37,392 bases of DNA from a virus (IMGVR_UViG_3300023174_000362:1-37392); one strand, 5' to 3'. Positions 5,063 through 33,681 are shown, counted from the first letter of the stretch. The notes: generated from the letters alone by a model not told the origin. Made by a program: numbers and translations.

Positions 5063-5737
5063 TTACCTTGCTTTATATTTTGGGTTCTTTACAATCCGCC
5101 CAGTCTTAGGGTCAAGTATATACATACTTACGGTGTCAGAAATTTTTGGGGCTTCTACCCCTGCGCTACTGTACTTCATTGGACCGCTCAACACACTTTC
5201 GTACTCTAACGTGCCAGGAAAAGTCTTTGACAGATAGTCGCGCCAGCGTTGTGAAGCTACATTGAAAGCATCTGGGTTTGCTTGCGCCAACGCCGCCGTT
5301 TGTTTGTCCATTGTACCGATACCTTGAGCACGCGCAGTTTCTGCAGCGAGTTGTTCAAGAGGTGAAAGAAGCTGAGCGCCGTAGACAGCTTGATTCTCGC
5401 CCATAGGTCTTGTCATATCTTTAGACAAAACATTTTGGTAATTTTCTGGAGTTAGACCATAGAAGTTAGCGCGATTTTGTAAATCCACACCAGACCCAAC
5501 GCCCTCGTCTTTAATACCTGCAGCGCCAGCATACGCCTCATAATTATTAAAATCCATCGGGTTAACGTAACCAGGACGCTGCATCTGCCAAGACTCAAGC
5601 GCGATTCGTTGCTCCATCGGATTGGTTATTTTGGTTAAATCTGGTTGACGAGCAGCCCATTGCTCTACAGTCTCAGGTGGAGCGCTCACTTCGCCGCCTC
5701 CGGCGTATAGGGCTATCAAATCTTGTATTTCTTTCAT
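5063..5737 (-). CDS. Unknown protein between packaging and portal genes
   Basis: 224 residues, rich in Ala, Gln, Asn and Pro, with no membrane segment and no motif recognised. The start overlaps the end of the 841-residue PcfJ-like gene by four bases (ATGA) and the stop lies four bases before the portal start, so the three are co-translated. The Ala/Gln-rich composition resembles low-complexity virion proteins of podovirus-like phages. A minor structural or ejected protein is possible, but not shown. Confidence 0.65.
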   Translation of the reverse strand: MKEIQDLIALYAGGGEVSAPPETVEQWAARQPDLTKITNPMEQRIALESWQMQRPGYVNPMDFNNYEAYAGAAGIKDEGVGSGVDLQNRANFYGLTPENYQNVLSKDMTRPMGENQAVYGAQLLSPLEQLAAETARAQGIGTMDKQTAALAQANPDAFNVASQRWRDYLSKTFPGTLEYESVLSGPMKYSSAGVEAPKISDTVSMYILDPKTGRIVKNPKYKAR

Positions 5738-8259
5738 CGCGGTTGCTCCATAACAAAACGAGCGAAATCAGGGTCAGTAAAGAAACCGCCGCCGTCGCTC
5801 ATGTCCGGCGTGGTGAAATCATCAGGGGTAGTGACTGAGCCCCCAACGGCGTAAGCAGGTGGTTCCTCGCCGCCTATGCGGAACTTCTTCAAGTCTTCTA
5901 AGGTTTTCGCCCCACGGATAGCCTCAGCTGGTACGTTCTCGTACAACGACGAGCCGCCGCTGAGACTAAACTTCTCATGCGGTAGGTTCTTTTCGTTGAG
6001 CATCGCTTGTATTGAGCTCAAAGACTCAGGCGTAAACTCATCAACCTGCATCAAGTTCAACGTGTTAGGTGCAGTCTTCTCAGTTCGCCCCATCAGCAGC
6101 GAGCCGTGTTCCATGTTCAAGCTGCTAGGGTCAAGCGGAGCTACACCTAACTTCGTTGCGTAGTCTGGATCCATCAACGACTTAGTATGCGTGTTCTCAA
6201 CGTCAAACACCTCAAGCTGCTTGGACTTTGGATTGTACCAGAACGGATTAGTGACAGGTTCTGGAGTTGGAGCGGGGAGTGGAGCCGGAGCGGGTGCCGC
6301 TTCTACGGGTGCGTACTTCCTCAATACGTCTGGAACTTCTCTTGGTATTCCCGTCTCTATAGTCTCATCCATATGCTGAATCAGTTGTCTGTAGTCTTTA
6401 TCAGACACGAATCTTGGTAGCTTCAAACCGAGGTCTTCAGCGTATTGGAGCGTAGTACCGAGTTCGTAACTAGTATCGCGCAGCCCTGCATTATGCGCCT
6501 CTTCAACGATATGCCAGTCATTTCCTTGTATGAAATCCTGCGTGTAGGGGTCGTACTTTTCAATAGGGCGTGCGTTGCCTTTGCCCTTGATCTGGTGTAT
6601 AGTGGGCTCAAAAGGTCCAAGCTGCGGCATGTACCTACCTGTAGTGTCATCAAACTTCCAGCGTATGTTATCGTCTAAGACGTTGCGTCTTTTCAGATCG
6701 GCGAAAACCTCAGGAGGTAGTTCTTCTTGACCGATAGTTCCTTCTCTAGGAGACACAGGAGGCTCAACCTCAATGGTCGCATGAGCTCTACCTTTGGGGT
6801 CGCGCAAACTGAATATTCGCACTTTTCCTTCAGCGACGGCGGGACAATAGCCGCCTACGCAGTGACCCATGGAGCTGCCTTCAAGCTCTAGAGCTTTTTC
6901 TAACTCACCGTAGTTTTTAGATTTTGAGTACGCTGCGGTTGCATCTTCAGGCGACTTCCAACCTATTTTACCAGTGCTCGGGTCTTTCCAAGAAAGAGCT
7001 TGTCCTGGCTCATAGATTTCAAATACATCTCCGTCTTTTCGGATTAGAGAGGTAATGTCCTGAACTGTGTCAGGCAGTTTAAGCTCAACCCACTTATACC
7101 CGTCAGGATATTCTTTCACTACTGAGGTGACTGGGCTCTTCTCTAGAGCCTTGATTGCCGCGTCGTGAGAACGAGCAGCTTGATTGGCTCGCCATTCGTT
7201 GATCTTAGACACGTGATTGACTACGTCAGATACTGACATCTGCTCAAGCTTCTTGGGATCTATCTGCAACACTTTGGGTAAGTTGTCGCCCAGCGTAGTA
7301 GCGTTGCGCAGCTCGTCAACGATATGATCGAACCCGAGCATCTTGGTAGGTTGATAGCTGGTTCCGAATTTATAAACGTCTGCATCAGGATCTACTTTAT
7401 GTATCCAAGATCCTGCCCCCGCCTCAGCTTTGATGCTTGGGTCTGGCCATACGGTGCTATTTCTCGCCTTACCCCCTTGGATCTGAGCGTCGGTTAGAGC
7501 TTCCCAGTCTGCAGCGAGTTGTGATCCTGCTGAGCCTTCAGTTGGGTATCCTGCCAAACCGCGATGCGTCTGAGCCCTCAGCCTCATAGAGTTACTGACA
7601 TCGGGTTCGAAGTGTAACTTGCCCTTCTCCGCTAGTAAACGTACTGGGTCTTTATCAGTACCCATCTCGTTCTTGATGTACTTGTTTAGCTTGGTGTCGA
7701 TCCAATTACTAATAGCGACATCGCCCCTGTTACCGATACCAAGCTCGTACGCGTCCTTCGGGTCTATGCCTGCGTTGGGCTTTATGCTCTCTAGGTTCTT
7801 CTCAACATTGAACCAGTTGCCCCCGCCGCCTTTTGGCTTCACGACGTTGAGCGGCTTCACGGCTTCGGGTATGAACTTGGATAGTGGGCTTTCCGCTCCA
7901 TGATAGATCGCTTCGTTCAGTCCGGCTCCCAGAGCCTTGCCGGTCAGCTTCGCCCCCTTCAGCGCAGGACCAGCGAGTGGAGCGATTTGGGCTGCGGTTC
8001 CGACGGGGAAGCCGTACTCAGCGCCCTGTCTCACTCTTGATGTGTTTGGGTCTAGCACCGAGCCGCCCAGTTCGTCAGGCGCCATACCGAGTAAACCCGC
8101 TCCTGCACCATAGACCTCGGGGTACTGCTGACGCAAGTACGAGCCTTCGCCTGTGCGCGTGAGCATCTGCGTGTTACGTAGGTCACCTGCTGCCGGTTTC
8201 CCGTACAGCATGTCCAGAAGCTTGGCTTCTTTCGTTTGAGGTTTTCCGCGTGTGGCCAT
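5734..8259 (-). CDS. Large putative virion or packaging-region protein with PcfJ-like domain
   Basis: 841 residues. The N-terminal 130 residues contain Gly/Ala-rich segments, as in virion proteins. A PcfJ-like region is visible: SMGHCVGGYC at about 462-471, then GKVRIFSLRDPKGRAHATIEV, and QIKGKGNARPIEKYD at about 554-568. PcfJ is a conjugative-plasmid protein of poorly known biochemistry, and related domains occur in phages. A Pro/Ala-rich linker (about 660-680) precedes a second folded part. It lies between the terminase block and the portal. No SD is seen before the ATG at 8259, but a TATAAT sits exactly where it would start a leaderless transcript. Confidence 0.65.
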   Translation of the reverse strand: MATRGKPQTKEAKLLDMLYGKPAAGDLRNTQMLTRTGEGSYLRQQYPEVYGAGAGLLGMAPDELGGSVLDPNTSRVRQGAEYGFPVGTAAQIAPLAGPALKGAKLTGKALGAGLNEAIYHGAESPLSKFIPEAVKPLNVVKPKGGGGNWFNVEKNLESIKPNAGIDPKDAYELGIGNRGDVAISNWIDTKLNKYIKNEMGTDKDPVRLLAEKGKLHFEPDVSNSMRLRAQTHRGLAGYPTEGSAGSQLAADWEALTDAQIQGGKARNSTVWPDPSIKAEAGAGSWIHKVDPDADVYKFGTSYQPTKMLGFDHIVDELRNATTLGDNLPKVLQIDPKKLEQMSVSDVVNHVSKINEWRANQAARSHDAAIKALEKSPVTSVVKEYPDGYKWVELKLPDTVQDITSLIRKDGDVFEIYEPGQALSWKDPSTGKIGWKSPEDATAAYSKSKNYGELEKALELEGSSMGHCVGGYCPAVAEGKVRIFSLRDPKGRAHATIEVEPPVSPREGTIGQEELPPEVFADLKRRNVLDDNIRWKFDDTTGRYMPQLGPFEPTIHQIKGKGNARPIEKYDPYTQDFIQGNDWHIVEEAHNAGLRDTSYELGTTLQYAEDLGLKLPRFVSDKDYRQLIQHMDETIETGIPREVPDVLRKYAPVEAAPAPAPLPAPTPEPVTNPFWYNPKSKQLEVFDVENTHTKSLMDPDYATKLGVAPLDPSSLNMEHGSLLMGRTEKTAPNTLNLMQVDEFTPESLSSIQAMLNEKNLPHEKFSLSGGSSLYENVPAEAIRGAKTLEDLKKFRIGGEEPPAYAVGGSVTTPDDFTTPDMSDGGGFFTDPDFARFVMEQPR

Positions 8260-17879: not shown

Positions 17880-18049
17880 ACGGGCATGGAGGGGCACGCA
17901 AGGGTGCAGGACGCCCAGCCACGCCGATAGACAAGCGTCGCGTGTTTGTGTTACGCGAGCAGGGTTTGAGTCAAAAAGCGATAGCAGAACGATTCGGTGT
18001 AACCGCAACGATCATAAAGCGAGTATTGAAACAAGGACTGCCCGCATGA
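17876..18049 (+). CDS. Small helix-turn-helix DNA-binding protein
   Basis: 57 residues. The frame starts at ATG 17876, overlapping the primase stop as ATGA, and ends with a TGA that overlaps the glycosyltransferase ATG, so both ends are coupled. The N-terminus has a Gly/Arg-rich GGARKGAGRP, common in small phage DNA-binding proteins. Residues 31-51 form a resolvase-like HTH: LSQKAIAERF then GVTATIIKRVL. It could be a transcription regulator or a terminase-like DNA binder. The fold call is good; the target is unknown. Confidence 0.75.
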   Translation: MNGHGGARKGAGRPATPIDKRRVFVLREQGLSQKAIAERFGVTATIIKRVLKQGLPA

Positions 18050-19374
18050 GCAGAGTAGCGATAGTCCAGTACGACAACCGAAATGACCAAGATTTGGGAG
18101 CTATGCGTGAGTTGATAGAGATAAACGCTACGTATGCTAAAAAGCACGGGTACGAGCATAGTTTTTGTAATGACGTTTATCTGAACTACCCACCCTACTG
18201 GGCAAAGATCTTTGTCGTTCTTGACGCGATCAATAAAGGATTTGATATCGTACTGTGGATTGATTCTGACGCAGTCGTGCATGATTTTGACCGTACGATT
18301 GAAAGCTTCTTCACAGGTAATGAGCTCTTCATCTATTCTAGCGACTGCGGGGTATGGCCTGAGTTTTTCAATGCTGGGATCTTTTTTGTGAAAAAAGAAG
18401 CGAAGCATATCATTGAGGAATGGGGCGCTCTGTACGACGAAACGATGTGGGTCAAAGAGCCTGATTACTGGAGACATTGCGTTGGAAGATGGGCTGGCGA
18501 GGCTTTCGAGCAAGGCACATTTACCGAGCATATAGTACCGAAGTACGAGAAAGTTTTAAAAAAGATTGATTGGCGAATCATCCAAAACCCATACCCGATA
18601 AAAGAATCATTTATCGTGCATTTTGCCGGGAGGTTTAGAGAAAACGCAGTGATGTACAACCATTTAAAGCACGCAGGAGAAAAACCTATGACCAGAAGAG
18701 TAGCAATCGTCAGCCCATCCTATGACGGTAAGATCGTTTGTGACCACGCGATCGCCCTTGTCACGATCTTTCAGCGAGCGGCTCGTGAACGACCTGACCT
18801 GCAGCTGAGCCTATCGTACTGGATGAACGAGGCGTTACTGCAGAAGGCGCGTAACAATCTGTTCTGTGATGCGTACGACTCCGGAGTGGATGATATCGTT
18901 TTCTTAGACGTCGATCAATCATTTGACGCGCAGGCATTTTTTGATATCTTGGACCACCCTGTTGATGCAGTCGGTATCACGGCGCGTATGAAGACTGATG
19001 ATGAGCGCTACACGCATCGCCCTGAGAACCCACGGGAGCACGTCTGGGACAAGGACTTGCGTCTGCTACAAGTCAAGTACCTCGCTACGGGTTTTATGCG
19101 TCTGTCACGCAAAGCGATGAAAGCTCTGTACGATTCGTCCAAGCATTATAATGACGGCAAAGACCGTCGTTTGATTTGTGACATAGAGATTATCAACGGC
19201 GGCATGATTTCAGAGGATATACAGATCGGCAAGAAGCTTCATGAAGCGGGGATCAACCTATACCTAGACATCAGGCATACGTGCGATCATTTCGGTACGA
19301 AGCGATACACAGGCGATTACAAAGAGCATTACGCGATGTCAATGATTGAGGATATCATGGGAGAAAAGAAATGA
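18046..19374 (+). CDS. Two-domain glycosyltransferase (fused GT-A domains)
   Basis: 442 residues. I start at ATG 18046 (MSRVAIVQYDNRN), which overlaps the HTH stop. Domain 1 (1-210) has a GT-A fold with the nucleotide-sugar metal motif DSD at 73-75 (IVLWIDSDAVV) and FFNAGIFFVK, like galactosyltransferase family 34. Domain 2 (215-442) is another GT-A-like domain: AIVSPSYDG, FLDVDQSF with D288/D290, and SEDIQIGKKLHEAG, like GT2 enzymes. AGGAG and ATG at 18675-18690 mark a possible internal start for domain 2. Targets could be modified DNA bases or the host surface; the replication-operon location favours DNA, which is inference. Confidence 0.75.
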   Translation: MSRVAIVQYDNRNDQDLGAMRELIEINATYAKKHGYEHSFCNDVYLNYPPYWAKIFVVLDAINKGFDIVLWIDSDAVVHDFDRTIESFFTGNELFIYSSDCGVWPEFFNAGIFFVKKEAKHIIEEWGALYDETMWVKEPDYWRHCVGRWAGEAFEQGTFTEHIVPKYEKVLKKIDWRIIQNPYPIKESFIVHFAGRFRENAVMYNHLKHAGEKPMTRRVAIVSPSYDGKIVCDHAIALVTIFQRAARERPDLQLSLSYWMNEALLQKARNNLFCDAYDSGVDDIVFLDVDQSFDAQAFFDILDHPVDAVGITARMKTDDERYTHRPENPREHVWDKDLRLLQVKYLATGFMRLSRKAMKALYDSSKHYNDGKDRRLICDIEIINGGMISEDIQIGKKLHEAGINLYLDIRHTCDHFGTKRYTGDYKEHYAMSMIEDIMGEKK

Positions 19375-21815: not shown

Positions 21816-22319
21816 ATGAACATCTTTTACTTACACCACGCCCCTCCTCTTGCCGCCGTCATGCACTGCGATGTGCACGTGGTCAAGATGATTCTTGAAA
21901 CGGCTCAGATCTTATCTACCGTCCATCACCTGCATGGTAACGGCGATGCCGTTCCTTACAAACCTACTCACATTCATCATCCCTCCGTTCGTTGGGCTGC
22001 TGAATCCAAGCTGCATTACTCTTGGTTGCGTGACTTAGGTGAATATCTTTGCCGCGAGTACGCGATGCGCTACAGCCCTCGTCGCCACGCTTGTGAGCGC
22101 TACATCAATAACGATCTCAGGTCACCCCCTCCTGCCCTCCTGACTATGCCCTTCGTTTGGCGTGAGCCGCCTCAGGCTATGCCTGATGAGTGCAAAGTTG
22201 AGGGTGATGCCGTTACCGCTTATCGTAATTACTACCGCACTCACAAGGCTGCATTTGCCAAGTGGCGTCTCGGCGGTATTCCTGTTTTTATGCTCGAGAA
22301 CAAGGTAGAATTCGCATGA
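21816..22319 (+). CDS. Conserved phage protein, possibly related to pyrimidine-dimer glycosylases
   Basis: 167 residues, from ATG 21816 (MNIFYLHHAP). The signatures HCDVHVVKMILETAQILS (17-34), YKPTHIHHPSVRWAAES (about 50-66) and the C-terminal QAMPDECKVEGDAVTAYRNY define a widespread phage family. It is vaguely similar to T4 endonuclease V-type proteins, but I do not see a decisive active site. Conserved His residues suggest metal or DNA binding. It lies at the head of the DNA-base modification cluster, so it may act on or protect modified bases. The stop overlaps the next start. Confidence 0.7.
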   Translation: MNIFYLHHAPPLAAVMHCDVHVVKMILETAQILSTVHHLHGNGDAVPYKPTHIHHPSVRWAAESKLHYSWLRDLGEYLCREYAMRYSPRRHACERYINNDLRSPPPALLTMPFVWREPPQAMPDECKVEGDAVTAYRNYYRTHKAAFAKWRLGGIPVFMLENKVEFA

Positions 22320-23074
22320 ATGCTAGGCACGTCTCCTACAAGGGTTTCCAGTTCTATGTACCAGAACCTGACGAGGAGGCGGCTTCAGTTGACGAAGTCG
22401 GCATGCAACACTGGTTCGATCATTCGCTTCGGTCTACACTGACTTACGCTGAGCAAGTCTGGCATGTGAACAAGTTCATCACAGAGACGAATCTATCTAT
22501 CTTGGAGGTATTCTGCGGCTTCGGTATGAGCACTGTAACGATAGATTCCTCTAGAATCGAGAAGCACGTGGCGTTCGATCATGATGATGCTTGCTGTGAA
22601 GCGTTTCAATTCTTACGTCCTGACGCGGATGTTATAATCACCGACTCCTACGTCGCTACTACAATCGCTACAAAGATCTATAAGTTCGACTGCGTTTACC
22701 TAGAGTTCAACTCCATGACCACCTACCGCGCCATGCAGGATCCTAATGAGTTGGCGCTCATAGAGGCGGTGTTGAACTCGGAGCCGCGCTACGTCATCTT
22801 CGTTGATAGTGCCAAAGTCAAAGAGCATTTACATCGCGCCACTTACTCAAAGTTCTTTGACTTCGGTATAGACAGTTCAGACGCTTACGTCCGTGCAGTT
22901 GAGTATTATTTCATTACACACTACGGCTACCGTATGGCGGCGTGCGCGCATGACAATATCAATTACACCTTTCTACTGAAGAAGGGTACCGACCTGACGC
23001 CGTGCGAAATCGTTGACACGCGCCAGCTAGTACGTCTCGATCAATTCAAGGACTTAGGCTATGTTGAAATTTGA
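22316..23074 (+). CDS. Rossmann-fold, SAM-methyltransferase-like protein of the modification cluster
   Basis: 252 residues from ATG 22316. A class I methyltransferase-like core is visible: motif I ILEVFCGFGMS at 62-72, an acidic residue after strand 2 (HVAFDHD, D88), ADVIITDS at 104-111 and FDCVYLEFN at 124-132. The usual DPPY or NPPY of DNA methyltransferases is absent, and the LEFN-like motif differs. It overlaps the upstream gene by four bases and the downstream pyrophosphorylase-like gene by 14. It may methylate or otherwise tailor the modified thymine. Fold call moderate, activity unproven. Confidence 0.6.
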   Translation: MNARHVSYKGFQFYVPEPDEEAASVDEVGMQHWFDHSLRSTLTYAEQVWHVNKFITETNLSILEVFCGFGMSTVTIDSSRIEKHVAFDHDDACCEAFQFLRPDADVIITDSYVATTIATKIYKFDCVYLEFNSMTTYRAMQDPNELALIEAVLNSEPRYVIFVDSAKVKEHLHRATYSKFFDFGIDSSDAYVRAVEYYFITHYGYRMAACAHDNINYTFLLKKGTDLTPCEIVDTRQLVRLDQFKDLGYVEI

Positions 23075-23852
23075 CCCCGCACTCTCTTGGCAGGACTTTG
23101 CGGCTAAGACCATCGCTACCGATGACCTAGACCCCGTATACGTTGCTCTGTATCTAGCTCAAATGCCTGAGGATATGCTCATGCGTTGGTGTGCTGCGTT
23201 CGTCACGTACTATCACATGGGTACCGCCTGTCAGCTGTGTACTCTGAAAGGTGATGAGTTCTGGCTTGAGCTCTGGAACCGATACGATACCGCTCCCCGC
23301 GCTTCAGAGCGTCGTCACTTCCGAGGTGAGTCAGGTAAGAAAGCGATCAAGGCTTGGATTAATACGTACGGTACTCCTGAGAACTTTTTCGCCGCCTGTA
23401 TGCAGCCCTCTTTCATGAAGCTTCTTCAGAAGGGCATACCTCAAATCGGTCAATACTTTACTTGGAAATGTATGGATTTGCGTGAGGCTGTGTTCGGGTA
23501 TCCTGTTGACTGGACAGACTCTGAACATCACATGGTGCAGTTACCGAAGCAAGGCTTGGAGGTTATCTTTCCTGAGCTGCTCACAGTTGAGAAGCCTGAC
23601 TATGCAACAGCGCTGCTGAAAGTAGCCGATACTATCAGCTACATCAATGCACCTCCTCGCGGCGTACGTAGCTGCGGCGTAGCTGAGGCTGAGACAGTTT
23701 GCTGCATGGCGAAGGCATACTACAAGAGCTCCAAGCCAATCGGTAAGGACATCGTTGAGAAGCGTCACGACCTGACGGGTTACGGCGAAATTTCTGATTA
23801 CATCTTGTCTTTCATGCCTGCAGAACCTTTTGATATCGAGATCATATCATGA
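23061..23852 (+). CDS. Alpha-glutamyl/putrescinyl-thymine pyrophosphorylase-like protein
   Basis: 263 residues, all-alpha. Conserved features resemble the aGPT-PPlase family defined in thymine-hypermodifying phages: DPVYVALY at 24-31, AAFVTYYHMGTACQL (about 45-59), EFW at 66-68, RRHFRG at 84-89, and GQYFTWKCMDLRE followed by GYPVDW in the middle. Members are DNA-glycosylase-like helical proteins that replace the pyrophosphate of activated 5-hydroxymethyl-dU in DNA with an amino acid or polyamine. It lies directly before two predicted 5-hmdU kinases. Which substrate is attached cannot be read from the sequence. Confidence 0.75.
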   Translation: MLKFDPALSWQDFAAKTIATDDLDPVYVALYLAQMPEDMLMRWCAAFVTYYHMGTACQLCTLKGDEFWLELWNRYDTAPRASERRHFRGESGKKAIKAWINTYGTPENFFAACMQPSFMKLLQKGIPQIGQYFTWKCMDLREAVFGYPVDWTDSEHHMVQLPKQGLEVIFPELLTVEKPDYATALLKVADTISYINAPPRGVRSCGVAEAETVCCMAKAYYKSSKPIGKDIVEKRHDLTGYGEISDYILSFMPAEPFDIEIIS

Positions 23853-24442
23853 ATCACATCATCAATATTCGCGGTACGAACGGCTCAGGTAAGACTACTA
23901 CAGTCCGTACGCTGATGAATTACTTGACGCATTACAAAGACGCGACTACATCTAACGGCGTGTTCTTTCACGTATACACGACTCCAGCAGGTGAGTACGT
24001 AGCCTTCATCGGTAAGTACGAGGGTGCGGTAACGGGAGGGGTTGATCGGGTGCGTAACGTGCGTGACGTAGTTGAAGCTTGTCGCGAAATAATTCCCTAC
24101 GCTCATATCGTCATGGAAGGCTTGCTCATGTCAGGTCTGCAGCAGTTGACCAAAGACGTAGCTGACGCTTGCGTGGGTGACGGGCAGTTTCATGCGCTGA
24201 CGCTTGACACTCCGAAAGAGAAGTGCATCGCTCAAACGCTCAATCGCCGCGCTCTTGCCGGTAACGACAAGCCCTTCGATCCGGGAAAGTCACTCGTTCC
24301 AAAGTATCGCGCCGTTGAGCTGGCTCACGCTAAGATGAAAAGCTGGGGCATGGATGCGAAGCTTGTCTCGCAGCGTGACGCTCTCATCGAGGCGCTTCAA
24401 CTCCTCAATATTCCTTTCAATCCTCAAAGTATATCATTATGA
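23849..24442 (+). CDS. P-loop kinase, 5-hydroxymethyl-dU DNA kinase type (copy 1)
   Basis: 197 residues. Walker A RGTNGSGKTT at 8-17, then IGKYEGAVTGGVDRV (about 51-65), a pattern shared with phage 5-hmdU DNA kinases, and a Walker B-like HIVMEGLL near residue 87. The lid-like region has TLDTPKEKCIAQTLNRRA. Such enzymes phosphorylate 5-hydroxymethyl-dU within DNA, activating it for substitution. It overlaps the pyrophosphorylase-like gene and the second kinase by four bases each. It is clearly a paralogue of the next gene. Confidence 0.75.
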   Translation: MNHIINIRGTNGSGKTTTVRTLMNYLTHYKDATTSNGVFFHVYTTPAGEYVAFIGKYEGAVTGGVDRVRNVRDVVEACREIIPYAHIVMEGLLMSGLQQLTKDVADACVGDGQFHALTLDTPKEKCIAQTLNRRALAGNDKPFDPGKSLVPKYRAVELAHAKMKSWGMDAKLVSQRDALIEALQLLNIPFNPQSISL

Positions 24443-24996
24443 CCAAAGTATTCTCTATACGCGGCTCCAATGGCGCTGGCAAGACATGGGTCGCTCGCCG
24501 TATCATGGATAAAGCTGAGCCTGACTTCAAGAAAAAGATGACGCTTGATAACGGCGTACTAATCAACATTTACAAAGACTTTGTCATACTCGGCTCTTAT
24601 GATCGTGTATGCGGCGGGTGCGACACTATCAAAACTCCTACCCTAGTCTGGGACGCCGTAGTTGAGTGCGCTGCCTATACGAATGTAATTTATGAGGGTG
24701 TCATCGTAGGTAACGTCTATGAGCCTACAATGATCTTGAACGCGAGGCTCAAAGAAGTCGGCGGCGAAATCGTACCTATCTGTTTGAGCACTCCGTTCGA
24801 ACAATGCGTCGCGAACGTGAACGCTCGCCGTGCTGTGGAAGGTAAGCCGCCGATTGAAAAGACTGATAATATCTTGACGAATGACAAAAAGAATATCTCC
24901 TCAGCGAAGAAGCTACACCTCGCGGGTCTAAACCCTCACTGGGTGAGTGCTGAGGAAGCCGTAGAAGTTGTCTTGAAGGAGTTGGGTTATGTTTGA
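24439..24996 (+). CDS. P-loop kinase, 5-hydroxymethyl-dU DNA kinase type (copy 2)
   Basis: 185 residues, with Walker A RGSNGAGKTW at 8-17. It then has LGSYDRVCGGCDTI (about 52-65), matching the family pattern even better than copy 1, and NVIYEGVI as Walker B-like strand. CLSTPFEQCVANVNARRAV aligns with the equivalent segment of copy 1. Length and motifs agree across the two, so they arose by tandem duplication. One copy may add the first phosphate and the other the second, or they may use different substrates; this is inference. Its end overlaps the helical-domain gene by eight bases. Confidence 0.75.
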   Translation: MTKVFSIRGSNGAGKTWVARRIMDKAEPDFKKKMTLDNGVLINIYKDFVILGSYDRVCGGCDTIKTPTLVWDAVVECAAYTNVIYEGVIVGNVYEPTMILNARLKEVGGEIVPICLSTPFEQCVANVNARRAVEGKPPIEKTDNILTNDKKNISSAKKLHLAGLNPHWVSAEEAVEVVLKELGYV

Positions 24997-25900
24997 TCAG
25001 CAAGCCAGTGTAGCGAGTATTGACTTGCTTCGTACGATGGCGTACTTCGTCAGCGAGCGTGACTTCATTCGTACAGAGCGCGAGGTGGGGGCTCCTGGTC
25101 CTTGGACTGAGGATGAGATCTTGCAAACTTATCGTTTCTGTAACGTTCGCCGTAAGCACGATCGTGTATCCAAGTGGATAATTGAGAACGTCATCAATCG
25201 CTACTCCGATCATCCTCACCTTTGGTTCATGATCTGCTGCGCTCGTTGGATCAACTGGCCTCCTACAATCCAAGCCCTCATGGATAGAAAGTACTGGCCG
25301 ACTGACGGGTTTGATCCTATCCGTTTTGGTCGCTACATTGATGACCGCGTCCGCGGCGGGGAGAAGACTTGGACTGGCGCGTACATGATCACCGCTCGTC
25401 AGGTTCCGAAAGATCTAGGTAAGGGCGAGTTCATCGCTACGCATATGCTCAACCCTCTGCTTCAGCGTCAAGAGCGGTTCCGTATGTACTTGGAAGTTCG
25501 TGTACCGCAGTGGCGATCTGTAGAAGGCGCGATGGAACTGTTTGAGGACGCGAATGGCTGGGGTACATTCATGACGGGTCAAGTCGTGGCTGATATGACG
25601 TATTGCCGATTGCTGAACCAAGCTCGTGATCTGCACTCCTACGCCCCTATTGGTCCTGGTTCAACTCGCGGTCTGAACCGTATGTACGGTCGCCCTCTTG
25701 ATCAGCGTATTCCGCAAGAGCGGTTCAATCAAGAACTGATAGATACTAAAGACAAGGTTGAGGATATCTTGAAGTACAAGCTAGAGGATCACACCTTGCA
25801 CGACTGGCAGAACTGCTTCTGCGAGTTTGACAAATACCTACGGGCGAGGAACGGCTCAGGTCGTCCCCGCGCTATCTATAAACCCGAAACAGCCTTTTGA
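24989..25900 (+). CDS. DNA-base hypermodification protein, 5-hmdU kinase-associated helical domain
   Basis: 303 residues, predicted all-helical. Hallmarks: PWTEDEILQTYRF (38-50) running into NVRRKHDRVSKWI (52-64), GTFMTGQVVADM (about 191-202), GPGSTRGLNR (about 222-231) and near the end CEFDKYLRARNGSGRPR. This is the pattern of the helical domain found fused to, or beside, 5-hmdU DNA kinases in phages with hypermodified thymine, and is related to DNA-glycosylase-like pyrophosphorylases. Here it is a separate protein, not fused to a kinase. It could be the base-flipping subunit for the kinases, or a second transferase. Family call is good; role is inferred. Confidence 0.75.
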   Translation: MFDQQASVASIDLLRTMAYFVSERDFIRTEREVGAPGPWTEDEILQTYRFCNVRRKHDRVSKWIIENVINRYSDHPHLWFMICCARWINWPPTIQALMDRKYWPTDGFDPIRFGRYIDDRVRGGEKTWTGAYMITARQVPKDLGKGEFIATHMLNPLLQRQERFRMYLEVRVPQWRSVEGAMELFEDANGWGTFMTGQVVADMTYCRLLNQARDLHSYAPIGPGSTRGLNRMYGRPLDQRIPQERFNQELIDTKDKVEDILKYKLEDHTLHDWQNCFCEFDKYLRARNGSGRPRAIYKPETAF

Positions 25901-25907
25901 GGACATC

Positions 25908-26888
25908 ATGGAAGTATTCAACGTCACCAACGTCAATCAAGCCTTTCCGCTCGAGATCAACTCTATCAAAGCGAAGGGCGTTCCCCGCGACTCGCGTAAT
26001 GGTCCAGTCATCGAGTTCAGCGAGCCTGTCGCTACTACTTACAGCCGCCCCATGGAGCGCGTTCTGTTCAATAAGAAGCGTATGTGTAATCCGTTCTTTC
26101 ACGCGATGGAAGGGCTCTGGATCATAGGCGGCTATCGCGATGTTGAGTTCTTGGATTACTTCAACTCACAGATGAAGCAGTACAGTGATGACGGCGATAC
26201 GTTCTGGGGTGCCTACGGCTATCGCTTGCGTCATTCAGCCAAGTTCGATCAGCTTGATCTAGCGGTCACCCTGTTGAAAGCTAACCCGAATGACCGTCGT
26301 GTAGTGACAACGATGTGGGATCCTGCGCTTGATCTAGGCGGCTCGAAGCTTGACCACCCCTGCAATACTCACATCTATTGGAAGATACGTGATAAGAAAC
26401 TGTACATGACCGTATGCTGCCGCTCAAACGATATGCTGTACGGTAAGCTGGGCGCGAACGTAGTTCACTTTAGCATGTTGCAGGAGTATATGGCTTTCCG
26501 CGTCGGTTGCGAAGTTGGTCCTTATACTCAGGTTTCTGACTCGCTACACGTCTATACAAGTCTACCCGTGTGGGAGGCGGTCAAAGATACGCCCTACCTG
26601 CCTGAGGATTACTATGATAGCGAGTACGCCGACCTGCTAGTCACTCCCTATCCTATGTTCAAGGACTGCTTCCTAGACGAATGGCATCGTGATCTTGAGG
26701 ACTTTATGTTAGACCCGCAAGACGATAAGATCTATCGCACGCCGTTCTTCCAAGACGTCGCTCAACCTATCAGCCTAGTCTGGTGGGAGCATAAGAAGAA
26801 CCGTAACGGCTTGCGCTACGTTGATAGTATCAAAGCTACCGACTGGCGCCGTGCATGCGCAATGTGGCTCAAGGAGAAAGAAGCATGA
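25908..26888 (+). CDS. Thymidylate synthase homologue, probable dUMP hydroxymethylase
   Basis: 326 residues from ATG 25908, with GAGG upstream. The thymidylate synthase fold is clear, and residues align with E. coli ThyA: catalytic C152 (C146) in HPCNTH, R172/S173 (R166/S167), D175 (D169), N184 (N177) in LGANVVHFS, and H214/Y216 (H207/Y209) in LHVY. Keeping Asn rather than Asp at 184 indicates a dUMP, not dCMP, substrate. In this cluster the likely product is 5-hydroxymethyl-dUMP, as with phage enzymes such as SPO1's. PCN replaces the usual PCH after the catalytic Cys. Ordinary dTMP synthesis cannot be excluded. Confidence 0.85.
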   Translation: MEVFNVTNVNQAFPLEINSIKAKGVPRDSRNGPVIEFSEPVATTYSRPMERVLFNKKRMCNPFFHAMEGLWIIGGYRDVEFLDYFNSQMKQYSDDGDTFWGAYGYRLRHSAKFDQLDLAVTLLKANPNDRRVVTTMWDPALDLGGSKLDHPCNTHIYWKIRDKKLYMTVCCRSNDMLYGKLGANVVHFSMLQEYMAFRVGCEVGPYTQVSDSLHVYTSLPVWEAVKDTPYLPEDYYDSEYADLLVTPYPMFKDCFLDEWHRDLEDFMLDPQDDKIYRTPFFQDVAQPISLVWWEHKKNRNGLRYVDSIKATDWRRACAMWLKEKEA

Positions 26889-27226
26889 CCAAAGACGAAG
26901 GATTACGCCTTGCATTGGAGGTTCTTAAAGCTGCTTATGTGCCTGTTGACTTAGATAAACAGCGTGAGAAAGCCATCACCGCCATTAAAGCCGCACTAGA
27001 AGCGAAGGATGAGCCTAAAGATGGCGGTTGGACACACGAAAGGATTGCTGGCATGGAAAGACTTAAAGCGCAACAAGATAGTCGGTTTGAGCCACAGCGC
27101 CCATGGGTAGGGCTGACGGATGAGGAGATTTGGGAATGGTTTAGAGATAACACAGCACTGACAAATGAGTCAGGCATAAGAATTGTCCGAGCCATTGAAG
27201 CCAAACTCAAGGAGAAGAACACATGA
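26885..27226 (+). CDS. Small conserved phage protein of unknown function
   Basis: 113 residues from ATG 26885, after AAGGAG and overlapping the previous stop. It starts MTKDEGLRLALEVLKAAY, has a Lys/Glu-rich helix, and ends with VGLTDEEIWEWF and AIEAKLKEKNT. This modular type is very common in phages of aquatic and Burkholderiales-like bacteria, and is often duplicated within genomes; its function is unknown. The stop overlaps the DNA polymerase start by four bases. Confidence 0.75.
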   Translation: MTKDEGLRLALEVLKAAYVPVDLDKQREKAITAIKAALEAKDEPKDGGWTHERIAGMERLKAQQDSRFEPQRPWVGLTDEEIWEWFRDNTALTNESGIRIVRAIEAKLKEKNT

Positions 27227-29019
27227 GAACTCTAGTCATCGACTTCGAGACGTTTTACGACCCGAAAGACTTCTCGCTTGCAAAGATGACGTCTACCGAG
27301 TATATTCGTGACCCTCGGTTTCAAACCCTGTGCTGCGCTTTCAAGCTAGACGATGAGCCTACAGTTATCGCTTGGGGTGATGATGTAGCGAAGGCATTTC
27401 AGCACTACGGTACAAACGTACGCGCCGTTGCTCACAATGCTCAGTTCGATGGGGCTATCGCCGCTCATCACTACGGCTGGTTTCCTGACGAGTGGGTTGA
27501 TACCGTAGGCTTGGCTCGTGCTCAGCTTCGGTTGAAGTCTTACAGTCTAGGCAACCTCGGTCAAGCGATGGGCTTCGGTGACAAGCTAGACGGACTCAGC
27601 GTATCCAAGGGTAAGCGTCTTGAGGACTTGCAGGAGTTTGAAAAGACGATCCTGAGCGAATATTGCATACGTGACGTGGAGCTCTGTCATAAGATTTACT
27701 CCTCGCTCATCGATGCCTGCCCTCGTTTTGAGCGTATGCTGCTTGAGTGGTCTATCAAAGCCGTAACCGATCCAAAGCTGGCTATTGATCACGAGATGCT
27801 AGATCAATACGTCGTTGACTTAGTCGAGAGTCGTGAAAGTACTCTAGCTGAGGCGGGTATCACGCGTGACGTCATCATGTCTAACCTCAAGTTCGCTGAC
27901 GCCCTCAGGAACCTCGGTGTTGAACCGCCTATGAAAATGAGCGAGCGTACGGGTAAAGCTACATACGCGTTTGCCAAGGACGACAAGGGTATCACAGACT
28001 TGCTATCACATCCTGATCTGCACGTTCAGACCATCGTCGCTGCTAGGCTCAAGCTCAAGTCAACGATTGAAGAAACACGCGCTCAGCGGCTGAGCAGCAT
28101 CGGCAAGTCAGGCTTACTTCCCGTACCCTTACTTTACTACGGTGCTCACACTGGGCGCTTCAGCGGCGGTGGAGGTATCAACCTGCAGAACTTGACTCGC
28201 GGCTCCAAGCTACGTAAGGGTATCATCGCGCCTCCCGGTAAAGCCCTTGTCGTTGGCGATAGCTCACAGATTGAGGCTCGTGCTCTAGCGATGGCGGCAG
28301 GTCAGCAGGACTTGGTTGAGGTTTTCCGTAAGGGTCTTGACCCCTACTGCGATATGGCGTCTTTTATCTACGGTCGTGAAATCACAAAGAAGGATGAGGA
28401 CGAGCGCTGGCTAGGTAAGGTTACGGTTCTGGGCGCTGGCTACGGTATGTCAGCGAATACATTCTTTGAGTTCCTCCGCGCTCAAGGTAAGCCCCGCCCC
28501 ATGGAAATGTGTCAGCGTGCTATCACCGCCTACCGCAAGAAGAACTACATGATTACGCAGTTCTGGGACAAGTGCGACAAAGCGCTGCAGAGCGTATTCA
28601 ATGGAGTCGAGACATCGCTCAGCGATTCGTTTGACGTGCGTACGGGGCAGAACAGTATCAAGCTACCTGTCGGCTTTCCGCTCATCTATCCTGATTTAAA
28701 GTATGGCGCTGCCGAGCGTCGTTGGACATACATGTCTCGCGGTGACGGTCGCTCAGGAATCTATGGCGGGTTAGTCACAGAGAATATCATCCAGTCAGTC
28801 GCCCGTCACGTAGTGATGGAACAACTGCTGATTGTGAACGAGATGTATCCCGTGGCGCTGACAGTGCATGACGAGATCGTTGCGGTGGTTGACGAAGCGG
28901 AAGGACCCGCCGCCCGTGACTACATTGAGCAAGTAATGAAGACCCCTCCTCGTTGGTGGCCGGACTTACCGGTCAATGCCGAGGTTAAATGGGGTAAAGT
29001 GTATGGAGAAATAAAATGA
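27223..29019 (+). CDS. Family A DNA polymerase with 3'-5' exonuclease
   Basis: 598 residues. The exonuclease domain shows DFETF (D7, E9), AHNAQFD at 70-76 and YCIRDVEL at 147-154. Polymerase motif A is GDSSQIEAR at 345-353 (D346), motif B RWLGKVTVLGAGYG at 395-408, and motif C HDE at 549-551. Aligned to E. coli Pol I, R395/K399/Y407 match R754/K758/Y766, and the position of F762 is Leu403. No 5'-3' nuclease domain is present. It should replicate the phage genome with the primase-helicase. Codon-level overlaps tie it to the modification cluster upstream and a small gene downstream. Confidence 0.93.
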   Translation: MRTLVIDFETFYDPKDFSLAKMTSTEYIRDPRFQTLCCAFKLDDEPTVIAWGDDVAKAFQHYGTNVRAVAHNAQFDGAIAAHHYGWFPDEWVDTVGLARAQLRLKSYSLGNLGQAMGFGDKLDGLSVSKGKRLEDLQEFEKTILSEYCIRDVELCHKIYSSLIDACPRFERMLLEWSIKAVTDPKLAIDHEMLDQYVVDLVESRESTLAEAGITRDVIMSNLKFADALRNLGVEPPMKMSERTGKATYAFAKDDKGITDLLSHPDLHVQTIVAARLKLKSTIEETRAQRLSSIGKSGLLPVPLLYYGAHTGRFSGGGGINLQNLTRGSKLRKGIIAPPGKALVVGDSSQIEARALAMAAGQQDLVEVFRKGLDPYCDMASFIYGREITKKDEDERWLGKVTVLGAGYGMSANTFFEFLRAQGKPRPMEMCQRAITAYRKKNYMITQFWDKCDKALQSVFNGVETSLSDSFDVRTGQNSIKLPVGFPLIYPDLKYGAAERRWTYMSRGDGRSGIYGGLVTENIIQSVARHVVMEQLLIVNEMYPVALTVHDEIVAVVDEAEGPAARDYIEQVMKTPPRWWPDLPVNAEVKWGKVYGEIK

Positions 29020-32828: not shown

Positions 32829-33338
32829 ATGGTTGCTCATCACATGATCAAAACTATCCGTCACGGTAATACCGTCAGGCGGTGGCACACGAGGCGTATG
32901 CATCACTACGAAACTGTAGGCGAACATACGGCTAACGTGCTTACAATTATCTTCGCGCTCTGTCACGACCGTAACCCTTCGGCTTCGCTTATCGGCGCTG
33001 CATTGATGCACGATACGGCTGAGCAGTGGGTAGGCGACGTGCCTGCTACGGCGAAGTGGGAATCACCTGAGTTGAAAGCGGCTCTCGATGCCTTGGAAGA
33101 AAAGAAGCTGAGCGATAACTGGATACATATCCCAGACATTGACGATGATGAGCGGCTCGTGCTGAAGTGGGCTGATATGCTTGACTTATGCTATACCTGC
33201 CTCATTGAGCTAGATATGGGCAATCGTGATATGGCTGACGTGTTTGATCGCGGTGTTGACTACTTGAAAAAGCTAGAGCCGCATCCTGTAGGGTTGGATT
33301 TATTAGATGCACTTGTAAAGGAAAGAAAGCATGTCTAA
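32829..33338 (+). CDS. HD-domain phosphohydrolase (YfbR-like nucleotidase)
   Basis: 169 residues. Features: VRRWHTRRM (16-24), VGEHTANV with H33, the HD pair H61-D62 in LMHDTAEQWVGD, PATAKWE after it, and a later WADMLDL supplying the last Asp. This is the YfbR-like layout of 5'-deoxynucleotidases, in which the RW residues bind substrate. In phages with altered bases, HD enzymes such as DatZ remove competing canonical dNTPs, so a similar role here is attractive but unproven. It starts after its own promoter-like motif and is coupled to the DUF1599-like gene by an eight-base overlap. Confidence 0.85.
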   Translation: MVAHHMIKTIRHGNTVRRWHTRRMHHYETVGEHTANVLTIIFALCHDRNPSASLIGAALMHDTAEQWVGDVPATAKWESPELKAALDALEEKKLSDNWIHIPDIDDDERLVLKWADMLDLCYTCLIELDMGNRDMADVFDRGVDYLKKLEPHPVGLDLLDALVKERKHV

Positions 33339-33681
33339 GTTGTTAGAGGGTTTGAACGGTATCACCGCTGCCGATATCAGCGGGTTGGTCAAGGCTGAGC
33401 GTAGCTATGGTGATAGCTGGCGCCGCCGAGGGGGTATCGGGGCTTTCATGATGCTTGCCCGTAAGTGGGATCGCATTGAGAATCAAGCTCAGGTGTATGG
33501 TTGGGACATATTTGATGCTATTACTAGCGACAAGCGTCCTGAGGGTATAATTGATGATATCCGTGACTTACGTCGATACCTTCTGCTCGTCGAAGAACAT
33601 CTGTTTGCTAGCGTTGCTCAAGTTGCCAAAGAAGCCCCTGAAGGTGATGCCGGTCAGGGTTACGTCAATCAAGATCGTTGA
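33331..33681 (+). CDS. DUF1599-like (nucleotide-modification-associated) protein
   Basis: 116 residues. The core YGDSWRRRGGIGAFMMLARK followed by WDRIEN (26-51) and the C-terminal DDIRDLRRYLLLVEEHL (75-91) match the DUF1599-type domain, also called nucleotide modification associated domain 1 from its neighbourhoods in modified-DNA phages. It is helical, with conserved Asp and Arg residues, and may be a nucleotide-pool or MazG-like factor. It overlaps the HD gene by eight bases. The biochemical function is unknown. Confidence 0.65.
   Translation: MSKLLEGLNGITAADISGLVKAERSYGDSWRRRGGIGAFMMLARKWDRIENQAQVYGWDIFDAITSDKRPEGIIDDIRDLRRYLLLVEEHLFASVAQVAKEAPEGDAGQGYVNQDR

Follow-up and report, generated by a model that had tools for sequence, protein, structure and literature searches.

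A predicted thymidine-hypermodification operon with two kinase genes and a methyltransferase-like gene in a metagenomic virus

Described systems and the operon at 21816-26888

The DNA of phage M6 contains 5-(2-aminoethyl)deoxyuridine (5-NedU), which is formed by way of 5-hydroxymethyldeoxyuridine (5-hmdU) and a 5-hmdU DNA kinase (PMC6449724), and the same cassette was described in SN1, a near copy of M6 (PMC9476957). In M6 the genes are ordered as an amino acid:DNA transferase (AADT, gp051), a pyridoxal phosphate (PLP) enzyme-like protein (gp052), a photolyase-like/radical S-adenosylmethionine (SAM) protein (gp053), the kinase (gp054), a stand-alone helical protein (HEL, gp055), a thymidylate synthase (TS)-type protein (gp058), an HD-domain protein (gp059) and a polymerase (gp062). 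A related predicted operon was analyzed computationally at positions 21816-26888 of IMGVR_UViG_3300023174_000362. The window is this whole IMG/VR virus record (37,392 bases), which also encodes terminase, portal, polymerase, primase and recombination genes. The order AADT-(x)-kinase-HEL-(x)-TS-(HD)-polymerase is common to the window, M6, Ab18 and Rhizobium phage RHph_TM26.

The operon consists of seven co-directional genes on the + strand that abut or overlap, with stop/start overlaps at 22316/22319, 23061/23074, 23849/23852, 24439/24442 and 24989/24996, followed by an 8-base gap before the TS-type gene. Five of the seven match the thymidine-hypermodification pathway:

23061..23852, + strand: AADT, 263 aa, with the motif RASERRHFRG (PF18724, 1.8e-11)
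23849..24442, + strand: K1, P-loop protein of the 5-hmdU DNA kinase family, 197 aa (PF18748 18.7 bits, below cut-off; assigned by iterated profile homology)
24439..24996, + strand: K2, predicted 5-hmdU DNA kinase, 185 aa (PF18748 1.4e-6, 28.4 bits against a cut-off of 27)
24989..25900, + strand: HEL, stand-alone HMUDK_hel protein, 303 aa (PF18723 3.6e-48, residues 14-288)
25908..26888, + strand: predicted TS-type pyrimidine (deoxyuridine monophosphate, dUMP) hydroxymethylase, 326 aa (PF00303 8.4e-20; phrog_5131 1.5e-104)

The E-values, together with a gene order conserved in distant phages, exclude chance as the source of these matches. Megablast of the region against phages returned a single match of 48 bases. 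A preliminary description of the window had proposed a single overlapping operon that makes 5-hmdU, installs it in DNA, phosphorylates it and substitutes it. Indeed, every gene it named is present on the + strand and overlaps or abuts its neighbor, and the profile searches it suggested matched K2 (PF18748), HEL (PF18723) and AADT (PF18724) above cut-off or strongly, with K1 below the cut-off. Good support for the proposed route itself comes from the families to which the proteins belong and from the gene order shared with M6, whose hypermodified thymidine is known from experiment (PMC6449724, PMC9476957).

The TS-type protein is 44% identical to M6 gp058. Cys152 and Asn184 were invariant in an alignment of eight phage homologues, the latter being the residue that the preliminary description had correctly located and considered dUMP-selecting. 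The nearest solved relative was the cytidine monophosphate (CMP) 5-hydroxymethylase 5b6d, ahead of thymidylate synthases including that of Bacillus, and the tryptophan pair of the Bacillus enzyme (WDQW) is missing from the window protein, as it is from M6. Because of this match and the missing pair, the predicted enzyme resembles the hydroxymethylases more than the methylating thymidylate synthases.

The AADT scored 44.7 bits against a cut-off of 26.2 (PF18724, Pfam ADDT) and matched the PaMx11 glycinyltransferase (PDB 8z2m) at 1.8e-22 and phiW-14 gp109 at 2e-36 with 32% identity. It had been described as an aGPT-PPlase-like protein with an RRHFRG motif; the protein and the motif were borne out, and the name is outdated, Pfam now listing the family as amino acid:DNA transferase. 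In the AADT tree, M6, Ab18, Sonora and RHph_TM26 were split from phiW-14, P26218 and the window with support of 100/99. The window AADT falls with phiW-14 and P26218, apart from M6, so glycine cannot be assumed to be its amino acid. A diverged AADT is carried by phages of the L108 type.

The predicted pathway and its product

Two further genes downstream of the operon enter the predicted pathway:

27223..29019, + strand: family A DNA polymerase, presumed to incorporate 5-hmdU triphosphate (phrog_17 1.4e-80; DNA_pol_A 5.2e-23)
32829..33338, + strand: accessory HD-domain YfbR-like 5'-deoxynucleotidase (PF12917 2.3e-17)

The polymerase gene lies just downstream of the operon and is syntenic across the clade; the HD gene is the immediate neighbor of TS in many relatives, M6, P26218 and Ab18 among them, and its product could plausibly remove thymidine monophosphate (dTMP). 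The TS-type enzyme would convert dUMP to 5-hydroxymethyl-dUMP while the HD nucleotidase depletes dTMP, and the phage polymerase would build 5-hmdU into DNA. HEL, a helical and possibly DNA-glycosylase-like protein, would recognize or flip the modified base and present it to K1 and K2, which would phosphorylate the hydroxymethyl group of 5-hmdU in DNA. The AADT would then put a free amino acid in place of the phosphate to give an alpha-aminoacyl-thymidine, whose chain would stay as the amino acid or be altered only by the SAM-dependent methyltransferase-like protein (MT) encoded in the operon. Modification would thus follow replication and replace part of the phage thymidine. The steps of hydroxymethylation, incorporation and amino acid transfer rest on homology to characterized systems, and the roles given to HEL, the two kinases and MT are ones that we infer.

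The core pathway of dUMP hydroxymethylation, 5-hmdU incorporation, kinase action and AADT substitution is held with high confidence, because each core step has family or residue evidence and the cassette is syntenic with that of M6, in which hypermodified thymidine is known. The same genes could in principle serve plain nucleotide metabolism, with a thymidylate synthase and nucleotide kinases and no base modification; genes for TS and P-loop kinases are widespread among phages, and the family match of K1 is weak. This alternative is highly improbable given the synteny with M6 and the strong family matches of AADT and HEL, neither of which has a known role in nucleotide metabolism.

Several observations weigh against the proposed modification pathway or parts of it. 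K1 falls below the Pfam cut-off of PF18748, and PHROGs (phrog_800) and several GenBank records label the kinase family (23849-24996) as terminase small subunit, which is probably a mis-annotation, as family membership points to a 5-hmdU DNA kinase. HEL is not strictly tied to the kinase: phages of the P26218 type have a kinase and AADT and no HEL, and phages with a TET-associated glycosyltransferase (TAGT) carry HEL without a recognized kinase. Of the 13 other two-kinase contigs in which the position of MT is readable, 5 lack the gene. The virus is a metagenome contig without an isolate, its completeness not stated. Finally, restriction-site avoidance in the window's genes, counted against a control of shuffled synonymous codons, gave weak support with a mixed signal. 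Thymidine modification could protect only sites that contain T, so depletion was expected of T-free sites, and GGCC (18 seen, 98 expected; z -10.9) and CCGG (45 seen, 88 expected; z -5.8) were depleted while GATC, CATG, ACGT, AGCT, GTAC and CTAG were not; however, the T-containing sites TCGA (z -9.7), AATT (z -6.5) and TTAA (z -6.1) were depleted as well. When contigs L014, L017, L019, L021 and L024 were pooled, the observed/expected ratio was 0.01 for CCGG and 0.43 for GGCC, and most T-containing tetramers were near expectation.

The likely product of the operon is thymidine bearing an amino acid. The simple aminoacyl-thymidine is favored because the enzymes with which M6 sculpts its base were not found, unless MT acts on it. 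A new final base is possible; one particular undescribed base, in which AADT attaches an amino acid to the C5 methylene and MT then methylates it, at sites divided between the two kinases, seems unlikely. If true, more of the thymidine, or a different selection of it, would be modified than in one-kinase phages.

The kinase pair, the helical protein and the methyltransferase-like gene

The two P-loop proteins had been described from the start as 5-hmdU DNA kinase-type, which holds for both: K2 exceeds the PF18748 cut-off, and iterated profile search placed K1 in the same family as K2 and the phage kinases. They are about 27% identical, and both keep all 16 family-invariant positions. The ratio of nonsynonymous to synonymous substitution rates (dN/dS) against close relatives was 0.02-0.04 for K1 and at most 0.07 for K2; K1, K2, AADT, HEL and MT are all under purifying selection. 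When 50,697 annotated phage records were searched with K1 and K2, 24 records (K1 query) and 336 records (K2 query) matched, each at exactly one place, and none had two matches. The K1-K2 pair was found ahead of HEL in 16 other IMG/VR contigs (L004, L005, L006, L008, L009, L010, L012, L035, L041, L042, L043, L044, L045, L046, L082 and L085), the remaining kinase-bearing relatives having one kinase. The K1 clade had support of 100/100 and the K2 clade of 100/99. Recent tandem duplication may still be the origin of the pair: the best tree does not join K1 with K2, yet the approximately unbiased (AU) test did not reject a common clade (p 0.17).

K1 and K2 would most likely divide their targets by sequence context, a reading preferred tentatively among those considered. 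The restriction sites that resist cleavage in M6, ViI and phiW-14 indicate TG/TC contexts (PMC6449724). A conserved and divergent kinase pair could explain how phages select thymidines for modification. The two proteins might instead act in succession, one phosphorylating hmdU in DNA and the other adding a second phosphate to yield pyrophosphoryl-hmdU for the AADT. The branching of the window AADT with phiW-14 and not M6 (100/99) is consistent with such a succession, as are the separate, well-supported clades and low identity of K1 and K2, which would be expected of enzymes with different substrates. However, phiW-14 has no PF18748 match, so such a pair is not the source of its pyrophosphoryl group; phages of the P26218 type have a single kinase with an AADT of the same branch; and the solved AADT takes the monophosphate 5-phosphomethyl-deoxyuridine (5-PmdU), according to its PDB title. 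Successive action is therefore rated improbable. A mixed complex is rated no higher; in it one kinase might be mainly regulatory, with HEL as a shared DNA-binding partner. The adjacent, overlapping and jointly conserved genes suggest such a complex, and in contig L046 the K1 homologue has its first P-loop glycine changed, so that one partner might survive loss of catalysis. It is opposed by the retention of every family-invariant residue in both window kinases and by the fact that most relatives get by with one kinase. The L046 protein (L046:1850-2443, RSTNGGGKTS) was the sole K1 or K2 of a tandem pair missed by the P-loop pattern.

HEL carries the motifs GPGSTRGLNR and CEFDKY, and the GPG and CE..KY residues were invariant in 30 sequences. 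Its model was of high confidence (pLDDT 92.7), and its structure alignment comprised the window and rows from viral contigs. The best fold matches in the PDB were the 8-oxoguanine glycosylase 3knt (E 0.11, probability 0.96) and the AADT 8z2n (E 0.23), neither significant. A plain DNA glycosylase was considered and rejected as the identity of HEL: the top matches are glycosylases, none of them significant (best E 0.11).

HEL and TS also stand beside a TAGT glycosyltransferase (PF20691) in five contigs (L013-L017), as at L014:8909-13375 and L017:10004-13602. When L014 and L017 were searched over their whole length, no PF18748 kinase and no AADT was found. These five contigs probably encode a glycosylated hmdU route employing the same helical protein; in the window no TAGT was found, and glycosylation of that type was rejected there. 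The preliminary description had recognized HEL and both motifs as a separate kinase-associated protein. The protein and motifs stand, and "kinase-associated" is too narrow, since HEL occurs beside TAGT without a PF18748 kinase (L014, L017). Because HEL is dispensable in P26218-type phages and occurs with TAGT where neither kinase nor AADT is found, its role may be a shared one in hmdU recognition or base flipping and not that of a dedicated kinase subunit. The occurrence of HEL beside kinases as well as TAGT suggests a shared recognition module of this kind, through which two routes of DNA modification, usually treated separately, would be connected.

The remaining candidate for a tailoring step is MT:

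22316..23074, + strand: MT, class I SAM-methyltransferase-fold protein, candidate tailoring enzyme, 252 aa (no Pfam match; assigned by fold search)

Its AlphaFold model (pLDDT 81.7) has a Rossmann-like methyltransferase fold, and Foldseek against the PDB gave 1037 matches at E<=0.001; among the matches listed, nearly all, including the top-ranked, were methyltransferases. Its dN/dS was 0.02. MT was present in 8 of 13 other two-kinase contigs with a readable upstream part. That MT is unrelated to thymidine modification, being a methyltransferase of the ordinary kind, for DNA or small molecules, that happens to travel with the operon, has close to an even chance: its fold matches are generic SAM methyltransferases, it weakly matches a DNA methyltransferase family (phrog_116), and it is absent from the five readable relatives noted above. 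Against this, its gene overlaps that of AADT by 14 nt, relatives were found neither in annotated phages nor in one pattern-based scan of bacterial genomes, and distant homologues occur in AADT cassettes (L072, L073 and L076), independent ones with radical SAM genes in L072 and L076. In L072 the homologue lies between the radical SAM and PLP enzymes (AADT-rSAM-MT-PLP-...-kinase), and in L076 it precedes a radical SAM-like gene, AADT, kinase, HEL and TS. A SAM-methyltransferase-like gene recurring in unrelated AADT cassettes is a candidate new tailoring step; that MT acts on the appended group is nevertheless rather doubtful.

Other genes and comparison with known systems

The seventh gene of the operon is its first:

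21816..22319, + strand: phrog_624/weak Pyr_excise (pyrimidine-dimer glycosylase-like) protein (phrog_624 3.4e-51; Pyr_excise 0.0064, below cut-off)

It adjoins the cassette in the two-kinase clade and stands next to HEL in L013-L016; its role in the pathway is uncertain. Elsewhere in the window, an open reading frame at 17941-19374 joins a GT34-type glycosyltransferase domain to a second, phrog_1574 domain and could serve a further sugar-tailoring step or act at the host surface; at this locus the near-identical phage L004 has just a weakly similar shorter gene. The small protein encoded at 33331-33681 has no Pfam match, and many distant phages (L010, L013-L021, L024) also encode it close to their HEL/TS cassettes. 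A GroES-like co-chaperonin (1813-2244, - strand; Cpn10 1.4e-8) lies in the head gene block, and an 841-aa protein with a PcfJ-like stretch (5734-8259, - strand) in the structural block.

Among described systems, the window is closest to the M6/YuA type, with which it shares AADT, 5-hmdU DNA kinase, stand-alone HEL, TS-type hydroxymethylase, HD protein and family A polymerase in identical order. M6, however, has one kinase together with threonine dehydratase-like (PLP) and photolyase-like (radical SAM) genes, whereas the window has two kinases, MT and neither sculpting gene found. Consistent with a departure from the 5-NedU pathway of M6, no radical SAM gene was found in the record and no PLP-enzyme hit among the open reading frames scanned, and the AADT lies on the phiW-14/P26218 side of the 100/99 split. 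PaMx11 gp46 (PUGT; 8z2m and 8z2n, the latter titled in the PDB a 5-phosphomethyl-deoxyuridine glycinyltransferase) is homologous to the window AADT over nearly its full length, with ERRH(F/W)RG and C-terminal EAET/EVET motifs in common; identity is low and the AADTs of the M6/Ab18 type branch apart, so its glycine specificity is not transferable. Delftia phage phiW-14, which makes alpha-putrescinylthymine, shares the AADT branch (gp109) and a HEL homologue (gp72). Its genes, unlike those of the window, are scattered over a 157 kb genome with no PF18748 match, and its product bears putrescine. Rhodoferax phage P26218 and the Manatee Spring podovirus are similar in genome size and have the minimal set AADT-kinase-TS-HD; they carry a single kinase and lack MT, and HEL is absent from the genome as a whole.

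The gene set had been thought unlike that of any characterized phage. For its core this does not hold, as AADT-kinase-HEL-TS is the standard order of M6, Ab18 and RHph_TM26 and AADT-kinase-TS that of P26218; it does hold for the tandem divergent kinases and the in-operon MT, neither of which turned up in annotated phages. The system belongs to a known kind, whose two-kinase, MT-bearing variant was not encountered among annotated phages, the literature on pathway permutations lying outside this comparison. A DNA-disguise pathway of a known kind thereby gains two features, a kinase pair and a methyltransferase-like gene.
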